From Deltaproteobacteria bacterium (GTDB taxonomy: Bacteria; Myxococcota_A; Polyangia; HGW-17): a stretch of DNA of 59,770 nucleotides. Each line of letters begins with the position of its first letter. The first letter of the stretch is position 1. The translations under genes and the position numbers were made by a program. The stretch lies in NCBI GenBank assembly GCA_016937155.1, contig JAFGWM010000083.1:1-59770 (forward strand), in the 5' to 3' direction. A model generated the notes under the pieces. It was not told where the DNA came from. It worked only from the letters and a program-made list of their open reading frames with translations, and ran no database searches. Positions 5,879-51,737 of this stretch are shown here, one piece after another.

Positions 5879-7309
5879 ATGAAATTCGTAACAATACTTC
5901 TTGGAGTGGTTCTTTTTATCGCCGGATGCGATGATAATTCAAGCTCGACCACCAACAACACCACGAATAATATAACTAACAACACTACCAATAACACCAC
6001 CAATAACACCACCAATAACACCACCAATAACACCACCAATAACTGCACTTGTGAAGAATGGCAGTTTTGCAATGAAGATAATTCATGTGAACTGGCAGAG
6101 GGCAGATGTGAGGAAAAGTCAGACTGTCCGACAAATCAACTCTGCAATACTGATAGTCACGAGTGTGTGAATCCCGTATGCACACCTGAATGCACTGATG
6201 TTCAGAGATGCACTGCAATGGAGGATAACACACCTGAATGTGTGGATATCACCCTCGAATGGAACCACATAGAAGTTACTATTGAGGATGAAATAATCAA
6301 CGGCACAAGTCTAATGAGTCCTGTTGACGGAATCAGTTTTGCGGTAAGGGAAACCACCGGTCATGTTATTACCCTTTTTGATTATGACTACAATGATCCA
6401 CAGATTACCTACCTGTGGCATCTTGATACCGATACAGGTGTTCATACCAGACGGGCTTTAAGCGGTACCCCCTTTGATGATACCGAAAATTTCTGCGTTG
6501 GAGGAGAAGACTGGTGCCAGTTTATCGGCTGGAACAGTGCAGATGATAAATGGTTTGTTGCAGGTCCATCCACCGATTCGATAATGAAAGTGGATCCTGA
6601 TACAATGGAAGCTGAACTTGTCAGCGTGACTGGAACTCACCCTGTTGACAGCCATATAAGTATCGCACACGCTGTCACAACTTCTGGAAGTGTTTATGTA
6701 TATGGAAGCACTGGCCCCTCAGGGTTTGGCGACACTTTATATTACCTGAACCCGGAAACCCATGCGTGGTCAGTTGTTAATGATTCCCTTCCACAGATGG
6801 ATGAAAACTGTATAGCTGTAGATGAGGAAACCGGTTTTCTATGGAGTTTCGGTGGCCGCCTGACCACAGACGGAGGAAACACCACTACTACTGTTGATCA
6901 AATAATTACTGTCAATCTTGAAACAGGCGCTTCAGTATCCACTACCATGCCAATGGGTGAACGACGGGGAATGTCATGTGTATTTGTTCCCACCCTTGAT
7001 ATGGTTCTGATTTTCGGTGGAGCTAGGGTAAACGATTATTATGATGACGCTCAAAACACCTTTTACAATGATCTTTGGGCATTCGATCCTGTAAGTGGCG
7101 AATTTACAAAACTCATGGATATAACTGAAGGCGGAACTCTGGATGATCCTGATGAATATGGAGATCAGCAGTTTATTGGAAATCCAGATGGGCCAAACTT
7201 CGGTCAAAACCGTGGAAAAATGATATGGGATGAAACAAATGGAAGACTATACATCATGGGAAGTGTTCCTGTTTTCTCTCATGAGCAGATTTACTGGATG
7301 GATCTTTAG
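5879..7309 (+). CDS. Surface lipoprotein: Thr/Asn repeat linker, Cys-rich region, kelch-like propeller
   Basis: The signal peptide ends in a lipobox (FIAGC, Cys17) followed by Asp at +2, which in E. coli would favour inner-membrane retention; whether that holds here is unknown. Residues about 22-55 are a repeated TTNN linker. A Cys-rich segment (about 56-120) with EGF-like spacing follows, then some 350 residues with kelch-like strands (repeated YYLNPETHAWSVV, GGRLTTDGG, FGGARVN, LWAFDPVSGEF). Kelch propellers usually bind ligands rather than catalyse. SD is weak (GGAG, 13 bp before the ATG). The 12-bp DNA repeat in the linker is listed separately. Confidence 0.75.
   Translation: MKFVTILLGVVLFIAGCDDNSSSTTNNTTNNITNNTTNNTTNNTTNNTTNNTTNNCTCEEWQFCNEDNSCELAEGRCEEKSDCPTNQLCNTDSHECVNPVCTPECTDVQRCTAMEDNTPECVDITLEWNHIEVTIEDEIINGTSLMSPVDGISFAVRETTGHVITLFDYDYNDPQITYLWHLDTDTGVHTRRALSGTPFDDTENFCVGGEDWCQFIGWNSADDKWFVAGPSTDSIMKVDPDTMEAELVSVTGTHPVDSHISIAHAVTTSGSVYVYGSTGPSGFGDTLYYLNPETHAWSVVNDSLPQMDENCIAVDEETGFLWSFGGRLTTDGGNTTTTVDQIITVNLETGASVSTTMPMGERRGMSCVFVPTLDMVLIFGGARVNDYYDDAQNTFYNDLWAFDPVSGEFTKLMDITEGGTLDDPDEYGDQQFIGNPDGPNFGQNRGKMIWDETNGRLYIMGSVPVFSHEQIYWMDL
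5990..6043 (+). repeat. 12-bp tandem repeat (4.5 copies) in lipoprotein gene
   Basis: The unit AATAACACCACC is repeated perfectly four and a half times in frame and encodes Asn-Asn-Thr-Thr. Degenerate copies extend upstream to about 5951. Gain or loss of units changes linker length by 4 residues without a frameshift. Confidence 0.95.
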
Positions 7310-11948: not shown

Positions 11949-12890
11949 ATGAAAATTATAAATGTTCTAATTTTATTGTTTACTTTGACACCTGCTTTTC
12001 CTGGACATAGTGTTGTTTCAAAGAATTCTGACATTGATCTGTCTCTTGAATGGGATACTCAGGTAAGCCGGTTTTTGGGAAATGAAAGTGATAGCAGAGG
12101 TCCTGCCAGCTTTTGCCCTAAAACCGATGGGGGAAAACTGATTCTGGATCAGGAAAACTTCCGCATACTTGAATTTGATTCAAATAATACTTATTCCGGT
12201 TACATACCCCTGCCCTCCTCCACTTTTAACTATATCGGACAAAAAAATGATGAGTACATAATCCTGCTGGATACTTTGGTATCGCAGGCAATGTACATTC
12301 TTAATTTCCATGGAGAAATACTTAATGAAATCGATCTCGAAGGAAGATATATACCCAAAAGCGGTTTCATTACAGGATTACTTACAGGTGATGATGGGAT
12401 TTATGTCGAAATTTCACATCGTTACAGCGTCCGAATCCTGAACCGGAACATGAAAGACGTAAAACGTACTATAGTAAGAGGACGGATTGTTTCCGGTTAT
12501 TCGTCTGTCATATGTTCATTCTCAGGAAACAGTATCAACATCTCAAGACAGCCGTACAACTCAGATAACCACTCAAAAACAAAACGTATTTTCTCCGCAA
12601 ACACTATTAACAGAATTATTCACGTTCAGGACTATACTAATGGTACAGTGATTATTTTCAGTGAAGTGGAATTCTCAAAATCTTATCCATACGCCGTTGA
12701 AATGCAGCGCAATACCATTGTTTTTCTAAATCGAAATCTGGAAGAAAAAGCACGATTTTACTCCTATAATATGCTCGGTCTGATGGATCAGAAGACAGAG
12801 TTTACTGTGCATACTGACGGAACTGTGCACCAGATGTACTATGGAGAAACAGGACTTGAATTTTATTCATGGAAGAGAGGGGAAATATGA
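11949..12890 (+). CDS. Secreted protein of unknown function, beta-rich
   Basis: A signal peptide (MKIINVLILLFTLTPAFPG) precedes about 290 residues rich in alternating beta-strand patterns (for example YIILLDTLVSQAMYILNFHGEILNEIDLEG and IVFLNRNLEEKARFYSYN). These suggest a propeller-like fold, as in NHL or 6-bladed proteins, but no diagnostic motif was recognised. GGAGG lies before the ATG. Its stop overlaps the next start, so it is coupled to the NlpC/P60-like protein. Predicted periplasmic or secreted. Function unknown. Confidence 0.75.
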   Translation: MKIINVLILLFTLTPAFPGHSVVSKNSDIDLSLEWDTQVSRFLGNESDSRGPASFCPKTDGGKLILDQENFRILEFDSNNTYSGYIPLPSSTFNYIGQKNDEYIILLDTLVSQAMYILNFHGEILNEIDLEGRYIPKSGFITGLLTGDDGIYVEISHRYSVRILNRNMKDVKRTIVRGRIVSGYSSVICSFSGNSINISRQPYNSDNHSKTKRIFSANTINRIIHVQDYTNGTVIIFSEVEFSKSYPYAVEMQRNTIVFLNRNLEEKARFYSYNMLGLMDQKTEFTVHTDGTVHQMYYGETGLEFYSWKRGEI

Positions 12891-14017
12891 TGAAATTATT
12901 TTTTATTTCCATCTTTGCATATTCTCTGACTCTTTCAACTCCGGTAAAATCTGCCCCTCCGGAGGAGCCAGTGGAATCAATTCTTTGCAGAGGTTACAGT
13001 GCAGTTGGATTTTCATATGAATGGGGTGGAGAATGCTGGTGTTCATCTGGTTGTGACCCCGATCTGAATAACTGCGAAGCAGGAATCTGCACAGTGAATG
13101 ACGGAGCCACAGGGTGCCCAGAATGTACACACTCCGGAACTTACGGGGCAGACTGCTCCGGATTTGTATCCAAAGCATGGCAGGTTCCAGACACTTATGC
13201 AACAAACCAGTGTGATGTCGCCAGATACACAGCGGCAAGTTTCACTGCCGACCATGAGTACTGGAATGTTATCCCGATGAATACTCTTTCTCCCGGAGAT
13301 GCAGTGGCAAGCTCAACTCATGTTATTCTGGTTACAGATTCAGGTGATGACTGGGGAAATTACGAGGTAATTGAAGCCAAGGGCTGTATTTACGGAATTG
13401 TTAACCAGGTGAGAACTTTTTCAACCAGTTACTCCGGAGCAAGAAGAATCAATTTGACTGACTGCAACTGTGAGGAAGGTGAAATTCAGACTGAAAACTG
13501 TGGAGACTGTGGAACAACTGAGAGAAGATGTGTCGGATGCATGTGGAGTGAATGGTCATCATGTGAGGGGCCATCTCCAACCCCGGAAGAATCCTGCAGT
13601 CCTGAAAATGGAGCACAGGGAGAATGTGCAAGGGGCACAGTACTTTGTGTCGCAGGTTTTCGGACATGTCAGGGGAAGTTACCCTCAACAGAAATTTGTG
13701 ACGGCCTTGATAATGACTGCGACGGAATTCCCGATAACGGCACGCCTGTTTCACTTGGTGAAGGTTATAAATGTTCAAATGAATGCGGAGAAGGCACAAG
13801 TCTCTGTATTGACGGAGTTTTAAAATGTAATATTCCTGACACCGGAACAGAGTGCACTGTTGAAATCCTCCCGGAACCCACTTCCAATGATGGCTGCAGT
13901 TGTAATTTTAATGGAAATTCAGGGCGGTCAGAAGCAGTTTTTATTATATTCCTGATTATCTACCTGATAAGAAGAAAAATACTGAATGTTCAAAACCTAA
14001 ACATCAGAAATCTTTGA
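12887..14017 (+). CDS. Secreted NlpC/P60-like (CHAP-type) Cys-rich protein with MopE motif and MYXO-CTERM-like tail
   Basis: A signal peptide precedes an NlpC/P60-like domain: GADCSGFVSKAW supplies a candidate catalytic Cys, STHVILVTD the His, and NYEVIEA the third strand. Such enzymes cut peptidoglycan peptides or amide bonds. The C-terminal half is Cys-rich and holds EICDGLDNDCDG, typical of MopE/myxobacterial surface proteins. The end is GCSC, a hydrophobic segment (AVFIIFLIIYLI) and RRK, the layout of MYXO-CTERM sorting tags, though about 11 residues trail the Arg cluster. ATGs at 12887 and 12890 both follow GAGAGGGG. The gene overlaps its upstream neighbour by 4 bp and its convergent neighbour by 14 bp. 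Confidence 0.8.
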   Translation: MMKLFFISIFAYSLTLSTPVKSAPPEEPVESILCRGYSAVGFSYEWGGECWCSSGCDPDLNNCEAGICTVNDGATGCPECTHSGTYGADCSGFVSKAWQVPDTYATNQCDVARYTAASFTADHEYWNVIPMNTLSPGDAVASSTHVILVTDSGDDWGNYEVIEAKGCIYGIVNQVRTFSTSYSGARRINLTDCNCEEGEIQTENCGDCGTTERRCVGCMWSEWSSCEGPSPTPEESCSPENGAQGECARGTVLCVAGFRTCQGKLPSTEICDGLDNDCDGIPDNGTPVSLGEGYKCSNECGEGTSLCIDGVLKCNIPDTGTECTVEILPEPTSNDGCSCNFNGNSGRSEAVFIIFLIIYLIRRKILNVQNLNIRNL

Positions 14018-15371
14018 TAAGCATAAACAATTCAGGACTCATGCCATCCACAGTAACGTTTAATACATAGTTAACCAGAGAAAAATCAGCACATTTTTGG
14101 GATGTACCAACATATACTTCCACTAAATACAGACCGGAATTCTGAGATGTAAAACTGTATTCCGGACACTGATAGTCCGGAGGGGGAAATGTGCAGGGTA
14201 CTTCATCGTCAGACTCGTGAAGATCGGTACCATCAGGATTTTTAATCATCATTCTGAGGTCAGCCGCCGTCTCAGCATCCACAGTATCAGCGTGGATATC
14301 AATAACTGAAAAAGCCGGTGCATAAAAAGCAAATAAATCTCGGTTAATCTCGTGACTGCAGCCACCAAGAGACATTCCCGAATCAACAGCATAGCCGACA
14401 GTTAATACTGCAGAGCAGCTTTGTGATTCAGTACAGCCATCTATAAAAATATTATATATACCTGAAACGGAAGCATCAAATACCACCGTTGAACCATTGA
14501 TATCTTCATAATTAGTGCTGCTGCATACGATTTCAGATTCCGATGATGAACAGTAATCTATTCCATCCCCGGACTCCCGCACATAGATATCTGACGGGAA
14601 ATCAGTATCCGGGTGAACAACAGATGCGATCATGAGACCATTCTTTGGGGGAGAAAACCTTACAACACCTTCACTGCCTGAGACTTCAGTGCAGCTCCCC
14701 ACCTGACCTGAATATGTACAGTCCACATCATACTGCAGCCCTGTCATGATATCTGAGGAAATATCCAATATATCTTCAGTTTCACAGATACCCTCTTTGT
14801 GTATATCAAGAGCAAAAATAGTGTCTTCCTCCATAAAAACAGCTCTCAATGCGTAAGTTTTGTCTGATTCCAGATAAGAATTGATTATTGCAGTTCCTTC
14901 ATTAAGAACAGTACCGTTACAGCTGCTTTCCAGAAGCTCCAGATACATTGAATCGGAAAAGCCAGGATGCATGGTGGAAATTACATATGAAGAGCTTTGT
15001 GCAACCCTAAAAACCAGAACAATTTCCTTTCTCAGTGTCGCCGAATCAGAATTGTACTGGGCGGAATAAATGCCAAGTGATTCATATCCGTAAAAAACTG
15101 AGTTGGAAGCCACAAGATCTGTAATATCAACAAGAGGTTCACATTCAACAATGCAATCCTGATGACAGGATTGAAAATCTTCTTCTGAGCAGATTCCATC
15201 GCCACATACAGATTCACAGTCCGAGGGACAGTTCAACGCATTTTCCCCATCATCACATACAAGATCACCACATCCGGATGATTTCTCCCCGCTACAGGAA
15301 AAACCAGAAATAATTACAGCGACAGATACTGTGAGGAGCTTCAGGATTTTATCAACTCTTTTTCGTCTCAA
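14004..15371 (-). CDS. Cys-rich lipoprotein with CGDG repeats
   Basis: The N-terminus has a basic region, a hydrophobic stretch and a lipobox-like SGFSC (Cys26). It is followed by two repeats of the CGDLVCDDGENALNCPSDC / CGDGICSEEDFQSCHQDC type common in myxobacterial surface proteins. The remaining 370 residues form repeated beta-sandwich-like blocks (AFYAPAFSVIDIHAD, SGLYLVEVYVG, SGIYNIFIDGC) that recall bacterial pre-peptidase C-terminal domains. Predicted surface-exposed and disulphide-rich. It reads toward the NlpC/P60-like gene. Function unknown. Confidence 0.75.
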   Translation of the reverse strand: MRRKRVDKILKLLTVSVAVIISGFSCSGEKSSGCGDLVCDDGENALNCPSDCESVCGDGICSEEDFQSCHQDCIVECEPLVDITDLVASNSVFYGYESLGIYSAQYNSDSATLRKEIVLVFRVAQSSSYVISTMHPGFSDSMYLELLESSCNGTVLNEGTAIINSYLESDKTYALRAVFMEEDTIFALDIHKEGICETEDILDISSDIMTGLQYDVDCTYSGQVGSCTEVSGSEGVVRFSPPKNGLMIASVVHPDTDFPSDIYVRESGDGIDYCSSSESEIVCSSTNYEDINGSTVVFDASVSGIYNIFIDGCTESQSCSAVLTVGYAVDSGMSLGGCSHEINRDLFAFYAPAFSVIDIHADTVDAETAADLRMMIKNPDGTDLHESDDEVPCTFPPPDYQCPEYSFTSQNSGLYLVEVYVGTSQKCADFSLVNYVLNVTVDGMSPELFMLIKDF

Positions 15372-17540: not shown

Positions 17541-17774
17541 ATGTGTCTTGCAGTGCCAGTGAAAGTACTAAAAACTGAAGATGAAACGGCTCAGGTTGAA
17601 ATAAACGGTGTCACCATGAACGTATCCACCGCACTTATGGATGGTGTTGAGGTCGGAAACTGGGTTCTGGTTCATGCCGGTTATATCATTGAAATCATCT
17701 CAGAAGAAAATGCACAGGATAAACTCGAATTATGGGATGAATATTACAAAATCACCGGAAAAAATGCAGAGTAA
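17541..17774 (+). CDS. hypC: Hydrogenase maturation chaperone HypC
   Basis: HypC escorts the Fe(CN)2CO group from the HypD complex to the large subunit of [NiFe] hydrogenase. The 77-residue protein starts MCLAVPVKV with the essential Cys2 and has the family pattern GNWVLVHAGYIIEII. A strong SD (AGGAGGTG) precedes it. hypD begins 4 bp after its stop. About 200 bp of non-coding sequence lie upstream; TTGACA at 17466-17471 has no well-spaced -10, so the promoter is unresolved. Confidence 0.96.
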   Translation: MCLAVPVKVLKTEDETAQVEINGVTMNVSTALMDGVEVGNWVLVHAGYIIEIISEENAQDKLELWDEYYKITGKNAE

Positions 17775-17778
17775 TAAA

Positions 17779-18858
17779 ATGGATCTTCGTCAACAGATTT
17801 CCAAATTGTCAGAGGACATTAAAGGACTTGCAGCAGGACACCCTCTTATGAATTTCATGGAGGTCTGTGGCACACATACGATGTCCATAGCAAAACACGG
17901 AATAAGAAGCCTGCTTCCCGATAATGTGAGAATTATAAGTGGTCCGGGCTGTCCAGTCTGTGTCAGCACCACCTCCGATATTCAGAATTCCATCGAGCTG
18001 GCTCAGCGTGGCATAACTGTGGCAACTTTCGGGGATATGCTCAAAGTTCCAGGTGTGGAAACTTCACTGTCGTCGGTTCCTGAAATATTAATGATTTATT
18101 CACCGCTGCAGGCTGTTCAGTATGCGCTTGAACACGCCGATAAAGAAGTGGTCCTACTGGGAATAGGATTTGAAACCACTGCTCCTTTGATGGCAGCAGC
18201 TTTGTTGAAAGCTAAATCACTAAATCTTAAGAATTTTTCTCTGTATTCCATGCATAGAATAGTTCCCCCTGCTCTTTCCTTACTGCTCGAAATCCCTGAC
18301 AGTTCTATTGCAGGATTCATTCTACCTGGTCATGTCAGTGTCATTACAGGCTCTGACTACTACGAATTTATGAAAAAATACAATACCAGAGGGGTAATTG
18401 CAGGATTTGAGGCTCTTGACATAATGGAGGCCTTATATCTTCTCGTCAAGTCAACAGTTGAGGGAATGACAATTATTCAGAATAATTACCCGGGTGTTGT
18501 AAGTGCAAAAGGAAATATAAAGGCACAGAAGATTTCTGAAAGTGTTTTTGAAAACTGTGATTCTGTATGGAGAGGAATCGGTTCAATTAAAAACAGTGGA
18601 TTAAAAATCAAAGATACATTCAGCACTTACAATGCCACCCTGAAATTCAATATTACAGAGCAGCATCTTCCGGATCCTCCGGGATGCCTGTGTGGCTCAA
18701 TTCTTCTGGGGAAAAATATTCCAACCGACTGTGGACATTTCGGTAATACCTGCACTCCAGCCAATCCTGTGGGGCCATGTATGGTTTCATCTGAAGGTAC
18801 CTGTGCTGCCTATTTCAAATACAATGTCATACAGCCAACCGATGGAAGGTCAAAATGA
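17779..18858 (+). CDS. hypD: Hydrogenase maturation protein HypD
   Basis: HypD is the [4Fe-4S] scaffold on which the Fe(CN)2CO cofactor is assembled with HypC and HypE. Motifs: FMEVCGTHTMSIAKHGI and GPGCPVCVST near the N-terminus, GFETTAP, and the cluster region CGHFGNTCTPANPVGPCMVS...GTCAAY at the C-terminus. The longest frame starts in hypC; ATG 17779 gives a 359-residue protein beginning MDLRQQISKL, as in the family. ATG 17764 is an alternative. The stop overlaps hypE by 4 bp (ATGA). Confidence 0.96.
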   Translation: MDLRQQISKLSEDIKGLAAGHPLMNFMEVCGTHTMSIAKHGIRSLLPDNVRIISGPGCPVCVSTTSDIQNSIELAQRGITVATFGDMLKVPGVETSLSSVPEILMIYSPLQAVQYALEHADKEVVLLGIGFETTAPLMAAALLKAKSLNLKNFSLYSMHRIVPPALSLLLEIPDSSIAGFILPGHVSVITGSDYYEFMKKYNTRGVIAGFEALDIMEALYLLVKSTVEGMTIIQNNYPGVVSAKGNIKAQKISESVFENCDSVWRGIGSIKNSGLKIKDTFSTYNATLKFNITEQHLPDPPGCLCGSILLGKNIPTDCGHFGNTCTPANPVGPCMVSSEGTCAAYFKYNVIQPTDGRSK

Positions 18859-19829
18859 GAAATGAAATAACATTGAACCACGGCAGTGGTGGACGCCAGA
18901 TGCATGAACTCATTGAGAAAAATATCAAGAAAGTACTTGGTGAAAATACAACCTCGGATGACAGTGCTGTAGTGGAAATAAATGGTCGTGTAGCATTCAC
19001 AACAGACAGCTATGTAGTAGATCCGCTGTTTTTTCCCGGGGGAAACATTGGTGCTCTGGCAGTAAGTGGGACAGTAAATGACCTCCTCACATGTGGTGCT
19101 TATCCTAAATTTCTGTCACTGGCCCTGATAATCGAGGATGGCTTTTCCATTAATCAACTTGATGAAATAATAAAGACTATCGCTATTTTTGCAAAGGATG
19201 CAGGAATACGAATTGTCACCGGGGACACCAAAGTGGTGGAACGTGGCAAAGGGGATGGCATATTCATCAATACCGCCGGAGTCGGGTCAGTTCCTGAAGG
19301 CCGGAATATTTCATCATCACTCGTAAAGCCCGGTGATATAATCATGGTAACAGGTGATATGGGCACACATGAAATGGCAATGTTCAAGGCAAGAGAAAAT
19401 CCACCTTTTGAACTCAATATAGTTTCTGATGTTGCCCCCCTTAATATTCAAACCCTTGACCTTTTAAGAAGAACCAGTGATATACACTGTATCAAAGATC
19501 CAACTAGAGGTGGCCTTGCAAGCGCACTTCATGAAATTTCCACAAATTCCAGTTGCAGTATAGAAATTGATGAAAGTTCGGTTCCTGTTCATCCTCAGGT
19601 GGCCGGAGCATGCGCGTTGTTAGGTTTTGATCCCCTTTATATGGCAAATGAGGGGAAATTTATCATTACTGGTGAAGCAGCAATCGAAGAGCATGTGAAA
19701 AACGTTTTTCCTGATGCTGTAACCATTGGAAAAGTCACTTCCGGAAGTGATGTTTATTTAAAAACAGAGGGTGGCGGCATCAGAAGACTGGGAATGCTTG
19801 AAACAATGCAGCTTCCAAGAATCTGTTAG
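18855..19829 (+). CDS. hypE: Hydrogenase maturation protein HypE (carbamoyl dehydratase)
   Basis: HypE turns a carbamoyl group, received from HypF on its C-terminal Cys, into thiocyanate that supplies the cyanide ligands. The 324-residue PurM-like ATPase has LNHGSGGRQMHELI, TTDSYVVDPLFFPGGNIG, GDTKVVERGKGDGIFINTAG, and ends in the obligatory PRIC tail. It completes a hypCDE unit. hypA, hypB and hypF and structural hydrogenase genes are not in this window. Confidence 0.97.
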   Translation: MRNEITLNHGSGGRQMHELIEKNIKKVLGENTTSDDSAVVEINGRVAFTTDSYVVDPLFFPGGNIGALAVSGTVNDLLTCGAYPKFLSLALIIEDGFSINQLDEIIKTIAIFAKDAGIRIVTGDTKVVERGKGDGIFINTAGVGSVPEGRNISSSLVKPGDIIMVTGDMGTHEMAMFKARENPPFELNIVSDVAPLNIQTLDLLRRTSDIHCIKDPTRGGLASALHEISTNSSCSIEIDESSVPVHPQVAGACALLGFDPLYMANEGKFIITGEAAIEEHVKNVFPDAVTIGKVTSGSDVYLKTEGGGIRRLGMLETMQLPRIC

Positions 19830-39521: not shown

Positions 39522-40472
39522 CTATTTGTCTTCAGAGTTTATTCTGGATAACTCAGAACTGATTCTGCCGAGTATTCTAAAAACAAGAAAAAGGGAAAGC
39601 GCTGCAAGTAAAAGACTCTGTGACAGCATTTTTAAATCAGGCTTTTCAAAAACAGCATCAGTATATTTCAGAGAGAACTCATTGAATTCAGGTTCTGAGA
39701 AGATGACAGGCAATATACTTATTGATATTACTAAGAAATTATAAAGTGAGTGAAAAATAACTGATGGAACGAGAGAACTGCTGTTCATCCTGATGATCGC
39801 AAGAACCCCACCAACTGTGGATAAAAGAAAAAAACCCTTTATCTGCATATGAACCGCAGCAAAAAGTACAGCTGAAAACCCTATTACCAAAGCTGGAGAA
39901 AATTTTTTCAGCATTAATGACCTTACAATAACACCTCTGAAGAAAAGTTCTTCACTTACAGGGGCAACAACACTTACAGCAAAAAGAGTCAGAAGAACTG
40001 TCCATGGCGCCAGAATTGAAGTTTTCACAAACATTGAAAGTCCGGCGTTTGATCCGAAATCACCATGAAAATAAAGAGCAATTGTTTCCAGTTGAGAACC
40101 ACATAATATTACAAATGGAATTAAAAACACTATAAGTATAATGAGTTTTAATGAGATTTCTTTTTTAAAAGAAAGAACATCAGCAGGGAGTATCAACCTG
40201 TTTGCACTGATAAATGCACTGACCCCCCAAACGGAACTTCCGGCTATGGAGACAACAATAAATGAAACTCCATCAAGGGGCATTTTTAAAAGCTTCACGA
40301 GAATCAATGCAAGAATCATGGAAATGAAAAAAGTGAGAAGTGTTGTTCCTGCTGTGAGAAAAAAGGAACCTGCGATACCAAGAGGAAACCCTTCAATTGG
40401 CAAACCGGAACTTTCAGTTTCATAATCGTCTCCGGAATTATCTGTTTCAATATCCGAATTTTTTTCCATCAT
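39522..40472 (-). CDS. CPBP family intramembrane metalloprotease
   Basis: This family (PF02517, CAAX/Abi) cleaves within or near membranes using Glu/His motifs. SEELFFRGVIVRSL, FAAVHMQIKGF and HSLYNFLV are the three motifs, in a protein of about eight spans with a long acidic cytoplasmic start. ATG 40472 has GAGGA 5 bp upstream; an earlier GTG (40484) is unlikely. Its stop codon abuts the S9 peptidase stop with no base between them. Confidence 0.9.
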   Translation of the reverse strand: MMEKNSDIETDNSGDDYETESSGLPIEGFPLGIAGSFFLTAGTTLLTFFISMILALILVKLLKMPLDGVSFIVVSIAGSSVWGVSAFISANRLILPADVLSFKKEISLKLIILIVFLIPFVILCGSQLETIALYFHGDFGSNAGLSMFVKTSILAPWTVLLTLFAVSVVAPVSEELFFRGVIVRSLMLKKFSPALVIGFSAVLFAAVHMQIKGFFLLSTVGGVLAIIRMNSSSLVPSVIFHSLYNFLVISISILPVIFSEPEFNEFSLKYTDAVFEKPDLKMLSQSLLLAALSLFLVFRILGRISSELSRINSEDK

Positions 40473-40646
40473 CAAAATCCTCACTTACACACGAAGATAC
40501 AAAGCAGATTACGGTGTCCATAAGTAAAATCAAAAAATGAAGTTACCGATTCCAGACTTTATTTATTAACACAGATTGAAAGTAGAACTTAACACTTTAT
40601 GTTGAAAAAGCTTACCATCTGATTATATTGACGCCGGGAGATAAGT

Positions 40647-49922: not shown

Positions 49923-51737
49923 TTATCCGATTGTCTGCCTGAAGGCTTCAACCGGTTTAATTCTGGCTGCTCTCACAGCCGGCCATATTGATACAAGCAT
50001 ACTGATTACAAATAATAATATCACTGGAATAGCAATACCTTCGATAGTCCATATTCCTCTCCATACGGGATCAAGTACAACACCCTGAAAAGTGAAGCCA
50101 TCGGGCAGCACAGACCTGAGATCCAGCCCGGTATTTACCAGATAACTGTTCAATGCAACCCCTATCGCTGTGCCAACAATTGAAGCAGCTAGACTCATAA
50201 GAAAAGTTTCAAAAATAATAAGTCTTGCCACCATATTTGGCTTCATTCCAATGGATTTTAAAACACCAAACTCCCGAATCCTTTCAATAACACTCATCAG
50301 CATTGTGTTCATTGTGCCAAAAGCGGCAATTATAAGTATTATCATCAATATAATGCTGGTCATGGCATCAGTGGTTTTAATCATCATTGCCATACCCCGA
50401 TCAATCTGTTGCCAGGTTCTCACTACTGCTACATCCTTTGTGACCTCTTTGATACCTGATATATAACTTGAATTTCTTGATGGTTCTTTTACGTGAACAG
50501 CGAATTCATGAACACCTCGAAGGGTTTTATCCTTTCCTTCAAAATACCGGATATCCATGAGATCCTTATCCCAGCCGTTTTTAATGTGAACTAAAACCAC
50601 ACTGCGATCCACCGAAGTACTGCCGGTTTTAAAAATCCCACAAACTGTATAAAACCTGTCCATCGGATAAAAGTGACTTGTTGCACTATCCATACCAATC
50701 CTGTCACCAACCTTCACATTAAGTGTTTCAGCTAAACGGTTCCCGATTAATATTTCGGGATATTTTCCACTCGGATTATCATTTAAATAACTTCCTTTAA
50801 TTACTGTTTTCCAACTATTTGTCACCAGTTTTTCCTCAGACGGAAGTATTCCCATTATTCCAACAGGGGCACTTTTTGTTCTGACAAATCTCCATTTGAT
50901 TTTCTTTTTTATTCTGGTGAAAGATAGTTTTCTCTTTTCGATAGTTTTTTCATTTTTATCAACTACTGCAGGCAGCTTTTTCAGGTTATCTATATCAGAA
51001 TCATCATCTGTACTTTTTTCCTGCGTTTTCCCTTCCGGATTTTCTTTTTTTGATGCTGAATCAACTACTGCAGGCAGCTTTTTCAGGTTATCTATATCAG
51101 AATCATCGTCTGTACTTTTTTCCTGCGTTTTCCCTTCCGGATTTTCTGCACCTAGAGCCCGCATTATATTTTCAGAAACAAATATTTCATTATCTGCATA
51201 GTCTCCATGTCTGATTCCAGAAATCTTTAATGTTCCGCAATTAAGTGAGACCGGAACAGGCTTGAAGAGTAAAGTACTGCCTGGTGTCAACCGATACTTC
51301 TTTGATGCTTTTTCAGATATTAATGCTTTGCAGTGAAATTCTTCATCATTTCCTTCACCAGTATTAACTTTTTTATCCCAAACAGCCGTAAGTTCTATTT
51401 CTTCATCACTGCTTATCATTCCACCACTGTATATTCTGGGAGCAACACCGATTATTCCGGATTTCCTTTTTAGGCGGGTATAGATATCATCAAATGGTAT
51501 TGTCTGACGAATACCTTTTTCCTCAGGCCATTTGGGATTATGAATCTGTATGTCTCCGAGATGCATTCTGGTTATGCCTTTAGTCATGGAGGTTGTCATT
51601 CCCACGATCAGACCATAGGTTGGTATACAAAGAGCAAGTCCCGATGCCATAGCACTAAGAGTTATGAGACTCCTTCGCTTTTGTCTCCAGAGATTTCTCC
51701 ATCCCATCTTTAGAAGTAGAACCGTATTCTGAAACAT
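49923..51737 (-). CDS. FtsX-type ABC permease with duplicated linker
   Basis: The 604-residue protein has the N-terminal helix, a long periplasmic core and FtsX helices (DAMTSIILMIILIIAAFGTMNTMLMSVIERIREFGVLKSIGM, FETFLMSLAASIVGTAIGVAL). It is about 190 residues longer than its neighbour because of an acidic, Lys-rich insert (residues about 198-270) that holds two nearly identical 29-residue copies of NPEGKTQEKSTDDDSDIDNL and what follows. It lies 27 bp after the LolA-like gene. The insert is probably a disordered periplasmic loop. Confidence 0.9.
   Translation of the reverse strand: MFQNTVLLLKMGWRNLWRQKRRSLITLSAMASGLALCIPTYGLIVGMTTSMTKGITRMHLGDIQIHNPKWPEEKGIRQTIPFDDIYTRLKRKSGIIGVAPRIYSGGMISSDEEIELTAVWDKKVNTGEGNDEEFHCKALISEKASKKYRLTPGSTLLFKPVPVSLNCGTLKISGIRHGDYADNEIFVSENIMRALGAENPEGKTQEKSTDDDSDIDNLKKLPAVVDSASKKENPEGKTQEKSTDDDSDIDNLKKLPAVVDKNEKTIEKRKLSFTRIKKKIKWRFVRTKSAPVGIMGILPSEEKLVTNSWKTVIKGSYLNDNPSGKYPEILIGNRLAETLNVKVGDRIGMDSATSHFYPMDRFYTVCGIFKTGSTSVDRSVVLVHIKNGWDKDLMDIRYFEGKDKTLRGVHEFAVHVKEPSRNSSYISGIKEVTKDVAVVRTWQQIDRGMAMMIKTTDAMTSIILMIILIIAAFGTMNTMLMSVIERIREFGVLKSIGMKPNMVARLIIFETFLMSLAASIVGTAIGVALNSYLVNTGLDLRSVLPDGFTFQGVVLDPVWRGIWTIEGIAIPVILLFVISMLVSIWPAVRAARIKPVEAFRQTIG
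50958..51045 (-). repeat. 88-bp direct repeat, copy 1, in permease gene
   Basis: Matches 51060-51147 base for base except a51006 versus g51108. The period is 102 bp (34 codons), so the duplication keeps the frame. Confidence 0.97.
51060..51147 (-). repeat. 88-bp direct repeat, copy 2, in permease gene
   Basis: Second copy of the 88-bp unit. Near-identity at DNA level, including synonymous positions, points to a recent duplication. Confidence 0.97.

Follow-up and report, generated by a model that had tools for sequence, protein, structure and literature searches.

The window, by which we mean the whole stretch of 59,770 nucleotides analysed here (G+C 39%), carries a gene whose product is probably a cell-wall-cutting enzyme fixed to the outer surface of a myxobacterium-like microbe via a known tail signal. 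Its reading frame is open across 12869–14017 (+), and the likely start at 12887 gives a protein of 376 aa. The ATG at this position shares an ATGA with the TGA stop of the upstream gene, and AGAGGGGA stands immediately 5' of the ATG. The gene, its parts and its two neighbours are laid out as follows.

11949–12890 (+): partner gene for an exported NHL-type beta-propeller (profile A8), sharing the ATGA overlap with the hydrolase gene
12887–14017 (+): CDS of 376 aa, with signal peptide, NlpC/P60-like domain, Cys-rich/MopE region and MYXO-CTERM-type tail
12887–12955 (+): probable Sec signal peptide MMKLFFISIFAYSLTLSTPVKSA, read by eye; aligned relatives are laid out alike before APP
12956–13474 (+): NlpC/P60-like catalytic domain, 173 residues (profile A6 against PDB; PF00877 in 8 of 19 homologues)
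13154–13156 (+): Cys of GADCSG, the predicted nucleophile, unchanged in all 19 homologues
13319–13321 (+): predicted catalytic His, invariant in 19 of 19 homologues
13373–13375 (+): Glu, the predicted third residue of the catalytic set, likewise unchanged in all 19 homologues
13688–13735 (+): single MopE-type motif CDGLDNDCDG (PF11617, 20 bits, cut-off 27), kept in orthologues
13892–13903 (+): GCSC signature, predicted lipidation/cleavage site; all 25 aligned own-genome tails have its G and first C
13934–13969 (+): short hydrophobic helix AVFIIFLIIYLI, 12 residues without charge; none of the 25 own-genome tails has a shorter one (range 12–19)
13970–14014 (+): RRK (13970–13978) and 12 further residues ILNVQNLNIRNL, a length inside the range of other tails
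14004–15371 (−): 455-aa lipoprotein-like gene, third cluster member, convergent and downstream of the hydrolase gene

Between the NlpC/P60-like domain and the tail lies a region rich in Cys that contains one MopE motif, and the tail itself reads GCSCNFNGNSGRSE-AVFIIFLIIYLI-RRK-ILNVQNLNIRNL. Orthologues 52–63% identical to the protein were found in 7 of the 58 other genomes searched and in the named MAG JAKLDZ010000109.1 (L002). The distribution of the gene is patchy, no match being found in the same-genus genome G001 or in G002–G004.

The product of the upstream gene gave nothing useful against Pfam. Its profile, A8, matches NHL and Pizza propellers with a best E of 1.4e-15, the matches including Pizza designs, TRIM2/TRIM71 and PknD. 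A propeller homologue is located just upstream of the hydrolase gene in all ten loci compared. The 455-aa gene is less constant in its position: since its homologue stands upstream of the pair and on the same strand in 7 of the 10 loci (L002 and L083–L088), whereas here it is convergent and downstream, gene order indicates that it is inverted or moved in the window. Elsewhere in the window, an ORF at 5879–7309 (+) codes for a lipoprotein in which a long Thr/Asn linker, (TNN)n, comes after the lipobox Cys; relatives have further examples (L262, L263, L264 and L255). An ABC permease-like ORF at 49923–51737 (−) has ENPEGKTQEKSTDDDSDIDNLKKLPAVVD twice, almost in tandem. The adjacent genes at 17641–19829 (+) are, going by their motifs, what we take to be hypD- and hypE-like genes, and no further hydrogenase gene was recognised beside them.

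The assignment of the catalytic domain to the NlpC/P60 type, proposed in the earlier note, rests on comparison with relatives. With the window protein alone, no NlpC/P60 model of Pfam was matched and the gathering score of PF00877 was not reached. The same model matches 8 of the 19 homologues individually at E ≤ 0.1, the best at 4.5e-6, and the profile built from all 19 (A6) matches solved NlpC/P60 enzymes in the PDB: RipA and related 'invasion protein' chains (best E 8.4e-4, up to 0.13), the cell-wall-associated hydrolase 8auc (E 1e-3), and Spr and MepS (E 0.02–0.9). The Cys and His regions of the domain are aligned with the PDB chains by this profile, and all the homologues share the Cys, His and Glu that the triad should have. 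A structure prediction by AlphaFold2, for which the window protein and L002 were the only two sequences, reached a mean pLDDT of 31.4, too low to bear on the fold. The domain thus shares with the NlpC/P60 endopeptidases (RipA, the related invasion proteins, Spr and MepS) the Cys and His regions, the third polar residue being invariant among the homologues collected here. Unlike those enzymes, the window protein adds Cys-rich insertions, a MopE region, a C-terminal surface anchor and a propeller partner gene. Our literature search found no paper that joins NlpC/P60 with MYXO-CTERM and nothing related on NlpC, MopE and sorting in myxobacteria.

A fold of the NlpC/P60 type need not imply activity on peptidoglycan, and the domain might instead act, say, as a transferase or as an amidase on another polymer. 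The Cys-rich insertions and the conserved CW..C..CPxCTHxG..GADCSG pattern are absent from the aligned PDB matches, the profile scores are weak (E about 1e-3), and the predicted place of the enzyme beyond the outer membrane is away from the cell's own wall. Against this stand the triad, invariant in 19 of 19, and the fact that peptidoglycan endopeptidases are the best structural relatives, so that we regard such a different activity as unlikely, though deserving of some weight, and retain the reading of the domain as a cysteine hydrolase of the cell wall. The MopE motif, a single one, scores below its Pfam cut-off and is kept in the relatives.

The tail of the protein is of the MYXO-CTERM kind in its three parts: GCSC with the invariant Cys, the helix AVFIIFLIIYLI and the basic RRK. 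As MYXO-CTERM requires, it is placed at the C-terminus, with 12 residues beyond RRK. A leave-one-out profile made from the 24 other tails of the same genome scores it at 28.9 bits (E 6.1e-6 at genome scale), and it is the sole match to this profile at E < 10 among the 1692 ORFs of the window. When the tail was shuffled 5000 times, 5 shuffles gave any match, the top one at 13.4 bits against the real 28.9. With the frame open and the tail recovered in this way, the succession of start, NlpC/P60-like domain, MopE motif and GCSC-TM-RRK ending that the earlier note had described for 12887–14017 is confirmed. The curated model TIGR03901 (cut-off 20 bits) gave no match to the window tail even at E ≤ 10. 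Eight relatives are available, of which L087 was left out because it runs off its contig, and all seven complete ones end in GCxC, a helix and a basic cluster at the same position. TIGR03901 places four of these seven tails over its cut-off (21.9, 24.4, 30.5 and 24.9 bits) and two under it (14.9 and 18.3 bits), L002 being without a match. Because the seven orthologous tails are alike and four of them exceed the cut-off, the tail of the window protein is, by descent and layout, a MYXO-CTERM tail, though below the curated score.

The helix of the window tail, at 12 residues, is the joint shortest and its end the longest among the 25 own-genome tails, so the signal may have decayed in part. Taken further, this would mean that sorting has been lost in this species and that the protein is an ordinary NlpC/P60 enzyme, secreted or anchored in the inner membrane; the missing TIGR03901 match and the lack of a match to the hydrolase gene in the same-genus G001 would agree with such a loss. 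We nevertheless find it improbable, as GCSC, helix and RRK are all present and are recognised at the leave-one-out E given above, while similar helices of 12–14 residues occur in 8 of the 25 own tails, the window's included, and other ends reach 14 residues. A functional sorting tail is therefore the reading that we keep.

Such tails are common in this genome. TIGR03901 finds 10 places at E ≤ 10, three of them over the cut-off; L116 is internal, and the nine others are tails at a C-terminus. A lineage profile made from 11 tails (10 own and one from L083) finds 27 places at E ≤ 0.3, of which 17 were absent from the profile's own input; 25 lie 28–46 residues from the stop and two are internal. 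A second profile round adds L214, so that the genome total, with seven weaker places left aside, comes to 28 tails (26 C-terminal and 2 internal). Because tails of this kind occur at 27 other places, 25 of which are C-terminal, the contrary prospect raised in the earlier note, that no other protein of the genome would share this tail type, is clearly dismissed. In the set of 25 own tails (profile A3) 18 have GCxC and 7 a single Cys.

The earlier note had further suggested that the residues following the Arg cluster may be a lineage variant of the signal, and this part of it has to be given up. Counted from the first R/K as far as the stop codon, the 25 own tails have 4–15 residues, with a median of 7, and 10 of the 25 have 8 or more; the window tail, with 15, is the longest. 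By the same measure the end has at least 15 residues in 6 of 17 tails of named loci and in 4 of 22 tails of relatives, these counts being a strict subset, as the pattern used caught 21 tails in the 28 own loci and missed that of the window. The end-length counts in own, named-locus and relative tails thus rule out the extended end as a lineage marker. According to Guo et al. 2025 (PMC11980579), a C-terminal FLAG tag on TraA still allowed cleavage.

What does vary with the lineage is the sequence of the tails. At E ≤ 0.01, TIGR03901 finds 3, 4 and 1 places in the own genome, in G001 of the same genus and in G002, respectively, against 6–63 in the 11 others of the 14 genomes. The lineage-specific variation is sequence drift in AT-rich genera, not end length. 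In comparison with the MYXO-CTERM system of Myxococcus xanthus (TIGR03901 and myxosortase MrtX), the shared traits are a signature with an invariant Cys, a helix and a basic end, many copies per genome, a CPBP protease and a T2SS, and orthologues of the window protein pass the model. The differences are that the window tail and most own tails lie under the cut-off, with AT-rich drift, Lys beside Arg and short helices, and that the ends of the own tails span 4–15 residues.

A homologue of the sorting protease, anticipated by the earlier note, was sought in the genome and a myxosortase-type candidate was found. Four CPBP proteases are present. That on contig C34 (65241–65978) scores 90.8 bits with Mrt_core, missing the cut-off of 100, 96.7 with MrtP and 90.6 with MrtC, and its translation carries the CPBP motifs EExxxR (PEEYFYRG) and HxxxN (HGLAN). 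Homologues of it occur in 35 of 39 genomes, the own included, and in 26 of the 27 good ones. Ten of the 34 homologues besides its own were tested, and eight pass Mrt_core, including that of G001 at 101.3; the two misses score 98.1 and 93.4. The secretin GspD, from which alone the T2SS was judged, is present in the genome at 498.7 bits (cut-off 351). The CPBP protease encoded in the window itself (39522–40484, −) was rejected as the sorting protease, with 41 bits for MrtS, 30 for MrtJ and 11 for MrtP, far under the cut-offs. Another bacterial CPBP protease of this genome, on C37 (L158:9147–9923, +), scores 92 bits against the archaeomyxosortase MrtA, and the ORF adjoining it is presumably uvrA-like, judged by a motif.

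With four CPBP proteases in one genome, an MrtA-like one among them (its 92 bits being set against a cut-off of 200), and with two classes of tail, 18 GCxC and 7 single-Cys, the tail could in principle belong to a distinct sorting system served by the C37 protease or by that of the window. We hold this to be very improbable: the orthologous tails pass the ordinary MYXO-CTERM model, and Mrt_core, MrtP and MrtC are the best matches for the C34 protease only. We accordingly continue with the ordinary myxosortase system.

Taken together, the domain with its Cys, His and Glu, the tail, the 27 other tails, the CPBP protease, the T2SS secretin and the conserved propeller partner lead us to predict, with good confidence, that the window protein is a surface-anchored NlpC/P60 cysteine hydrolase, lipid-anchored, sorted by myxosortase and accompanied by an NHL propeller. 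The interpretation offered in the earlier note therefore stands as regards the domain, the motif, the tail, the other tails and the protease, and falls as regards the long end as a lineage variant. The hydrolase would be taken by Sec across the inner membrane and retained there by the tail helix. The Cys of GCSC would then receive a lipid, and the C34 CPBP protease would cut behind the lipidated Cys, releasing the helix, RRK and the last 12 residues, after which the enzyme, folded and bearing its lipid anchor, would be carried by the T2SS to the cell's outer surface. Once there, it may cut the peptide bonds in peptidoglycan or in some similar glycopeptide, and the NHL propeller is a likely binding or control partner. 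Since the enzyme would be outside the outer membrane, its most likely targets are fragments or the walls of neighbours, not the cell's own sacculus, and a role in predation, scavenging or contact may be envisaged.

The two internal tails of the genome, both outside the window, reveal a further use of the same signal. They are situated in giant ORFs, listed here with a related pair of separate genes.

Own genome, C66, L155:7829–11992 (−): giant ORF of 1387 aa with an internal MYXO-CTERM-like tail
Own genome, C25, L156:5937–16352 (+): giant ORF of 3471 aa with an internal MYXO-CTERM-like tail
Own genome, C34, L157:1202–7809 (+): unfused C25-type pair, a MopE-rich protein with a GCSS tail and a lipoprotein gene

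In both ORFs the basic end of the tail passes, with no stop or Met, into a hydrophobic stretch closing with a lipobox-like Cys; the N-terminus of the C66 protein is also a lipoprotein-like signal peptide. L116, the internal TIGR03901 place, is this tail of the C66 polyprotein and not a chance match. A search with the C66 protein matched 25 of 39 genomes at E ≤ 1e-20, the own included. Among 29 ORFs of this type the hairpin was found in 18 by pattern and in a further three, L165, L166 and L177, by alignment; L169 is truncated by the end of its contig. By pattern and alignment it was not seen in L178, L180, L181, L183, L185, L189 and L190, of which L180 and L181 end in a tail instead. Both Cys are invariant in all 15 aligned junctions of the C66 type, of which 11 are recognised by TIGR03901 at E ≤ 1; this set leaves out L169, as well as L166, which hardly differs from L165.

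For the C25 type, 8 genomes together have 10 loci with the fused form, and no fewer than five loci (G000 C34, G001 C121, G003 C232, G008 C192 and G011 C259) have overlapping genes instead, four further places (L253, L255, L266 and L270) not being fully settled in these counts. Fused and split forms coexist in G000 (the own genome), G001, G003 and G011. In the own split pair, the start of the lipoprotein gene and the stop of the gene before it have 4 bases in common, and the pair lies some 8 kb away from the myxosortase candidate. An assembly error behind the fused frames is rejected because they recur: that of the C66 type is uninterrupted in many genomes, and that of the C25 type is found at the 10 loci just counted. 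With a hairpin profile, matches at E ≤ 1e-7 were obtained in 23 of the 96 genomes of the class, among them all 13 of the order; these counts are not independent, because the profile was partly made from the searched genomes. The hairpin was also found in six of 80 named loci (L039, L042, L052, L059, L066 and L072), that of L072 containing a Met. As read from these frames, the hairpin layout is spread through the class, either within one fused protein or between two genes that overlap.

We lean, if only slightly, towards the view that the mid-protein MYXO-CTERM tail and the lipoprotein signal peptide form a cleavable membrane hairpin that yields two proteins, each with a lipid anchor, at a constant ratio of one to one. 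A single translation product would enter the membrane twice; myxosortase would free the N-terminal protein with a C-terminal lipid, and LspA would free the C-terminal protein with an N-terminal lipid. One internal MYXO-CTERM has been published, MXAN_5598 of M. xanthus; in that report such cases are called rare, processing is proposed, and the protein, whose second part is an outer-membrane beta-barrel/OmpA protein, is compared with the overlapping traA/traB genes (Guo et al. 2025, PMC11980579). As far as the protein is described there, it shares with the hairpin polyproteins an internal MYXO-CTERM followed by a second exported part, whereas in our polyproteins a lipoprotein signal peptide with an invariant Cys follows directly and the arrangement is conserved class-wide. 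The NCBIfam model NF058595, 'lipo-invert putative C-terminal anchoring domain', gave a weak match over the hairpin (14.9 and 16.3 bits, cut-off 37); it is named a C-terminal domain, while the hairpin here is mid-protein. Our literature search, with most subscription journals outside its reach, found no description of the back-to-back layout.

For the AT-rich members of the group these results mean that the curated MYXO-CTERM model misses most of the sorting tails, with 3 places over its cut-off against 28 tails obtained with the lineage profile, and that the surface proteomes of these bacteria are consequently underestimated. With the hairpin proteins one could test cleanly whether internal sites are processed by myxosortase and whether lipidation or cleavage comes first. 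If both sites are cut, the class-wide layout would be a bacterial surface polyprotein, with sorting signals of opposite direction in one membrane hairpin.
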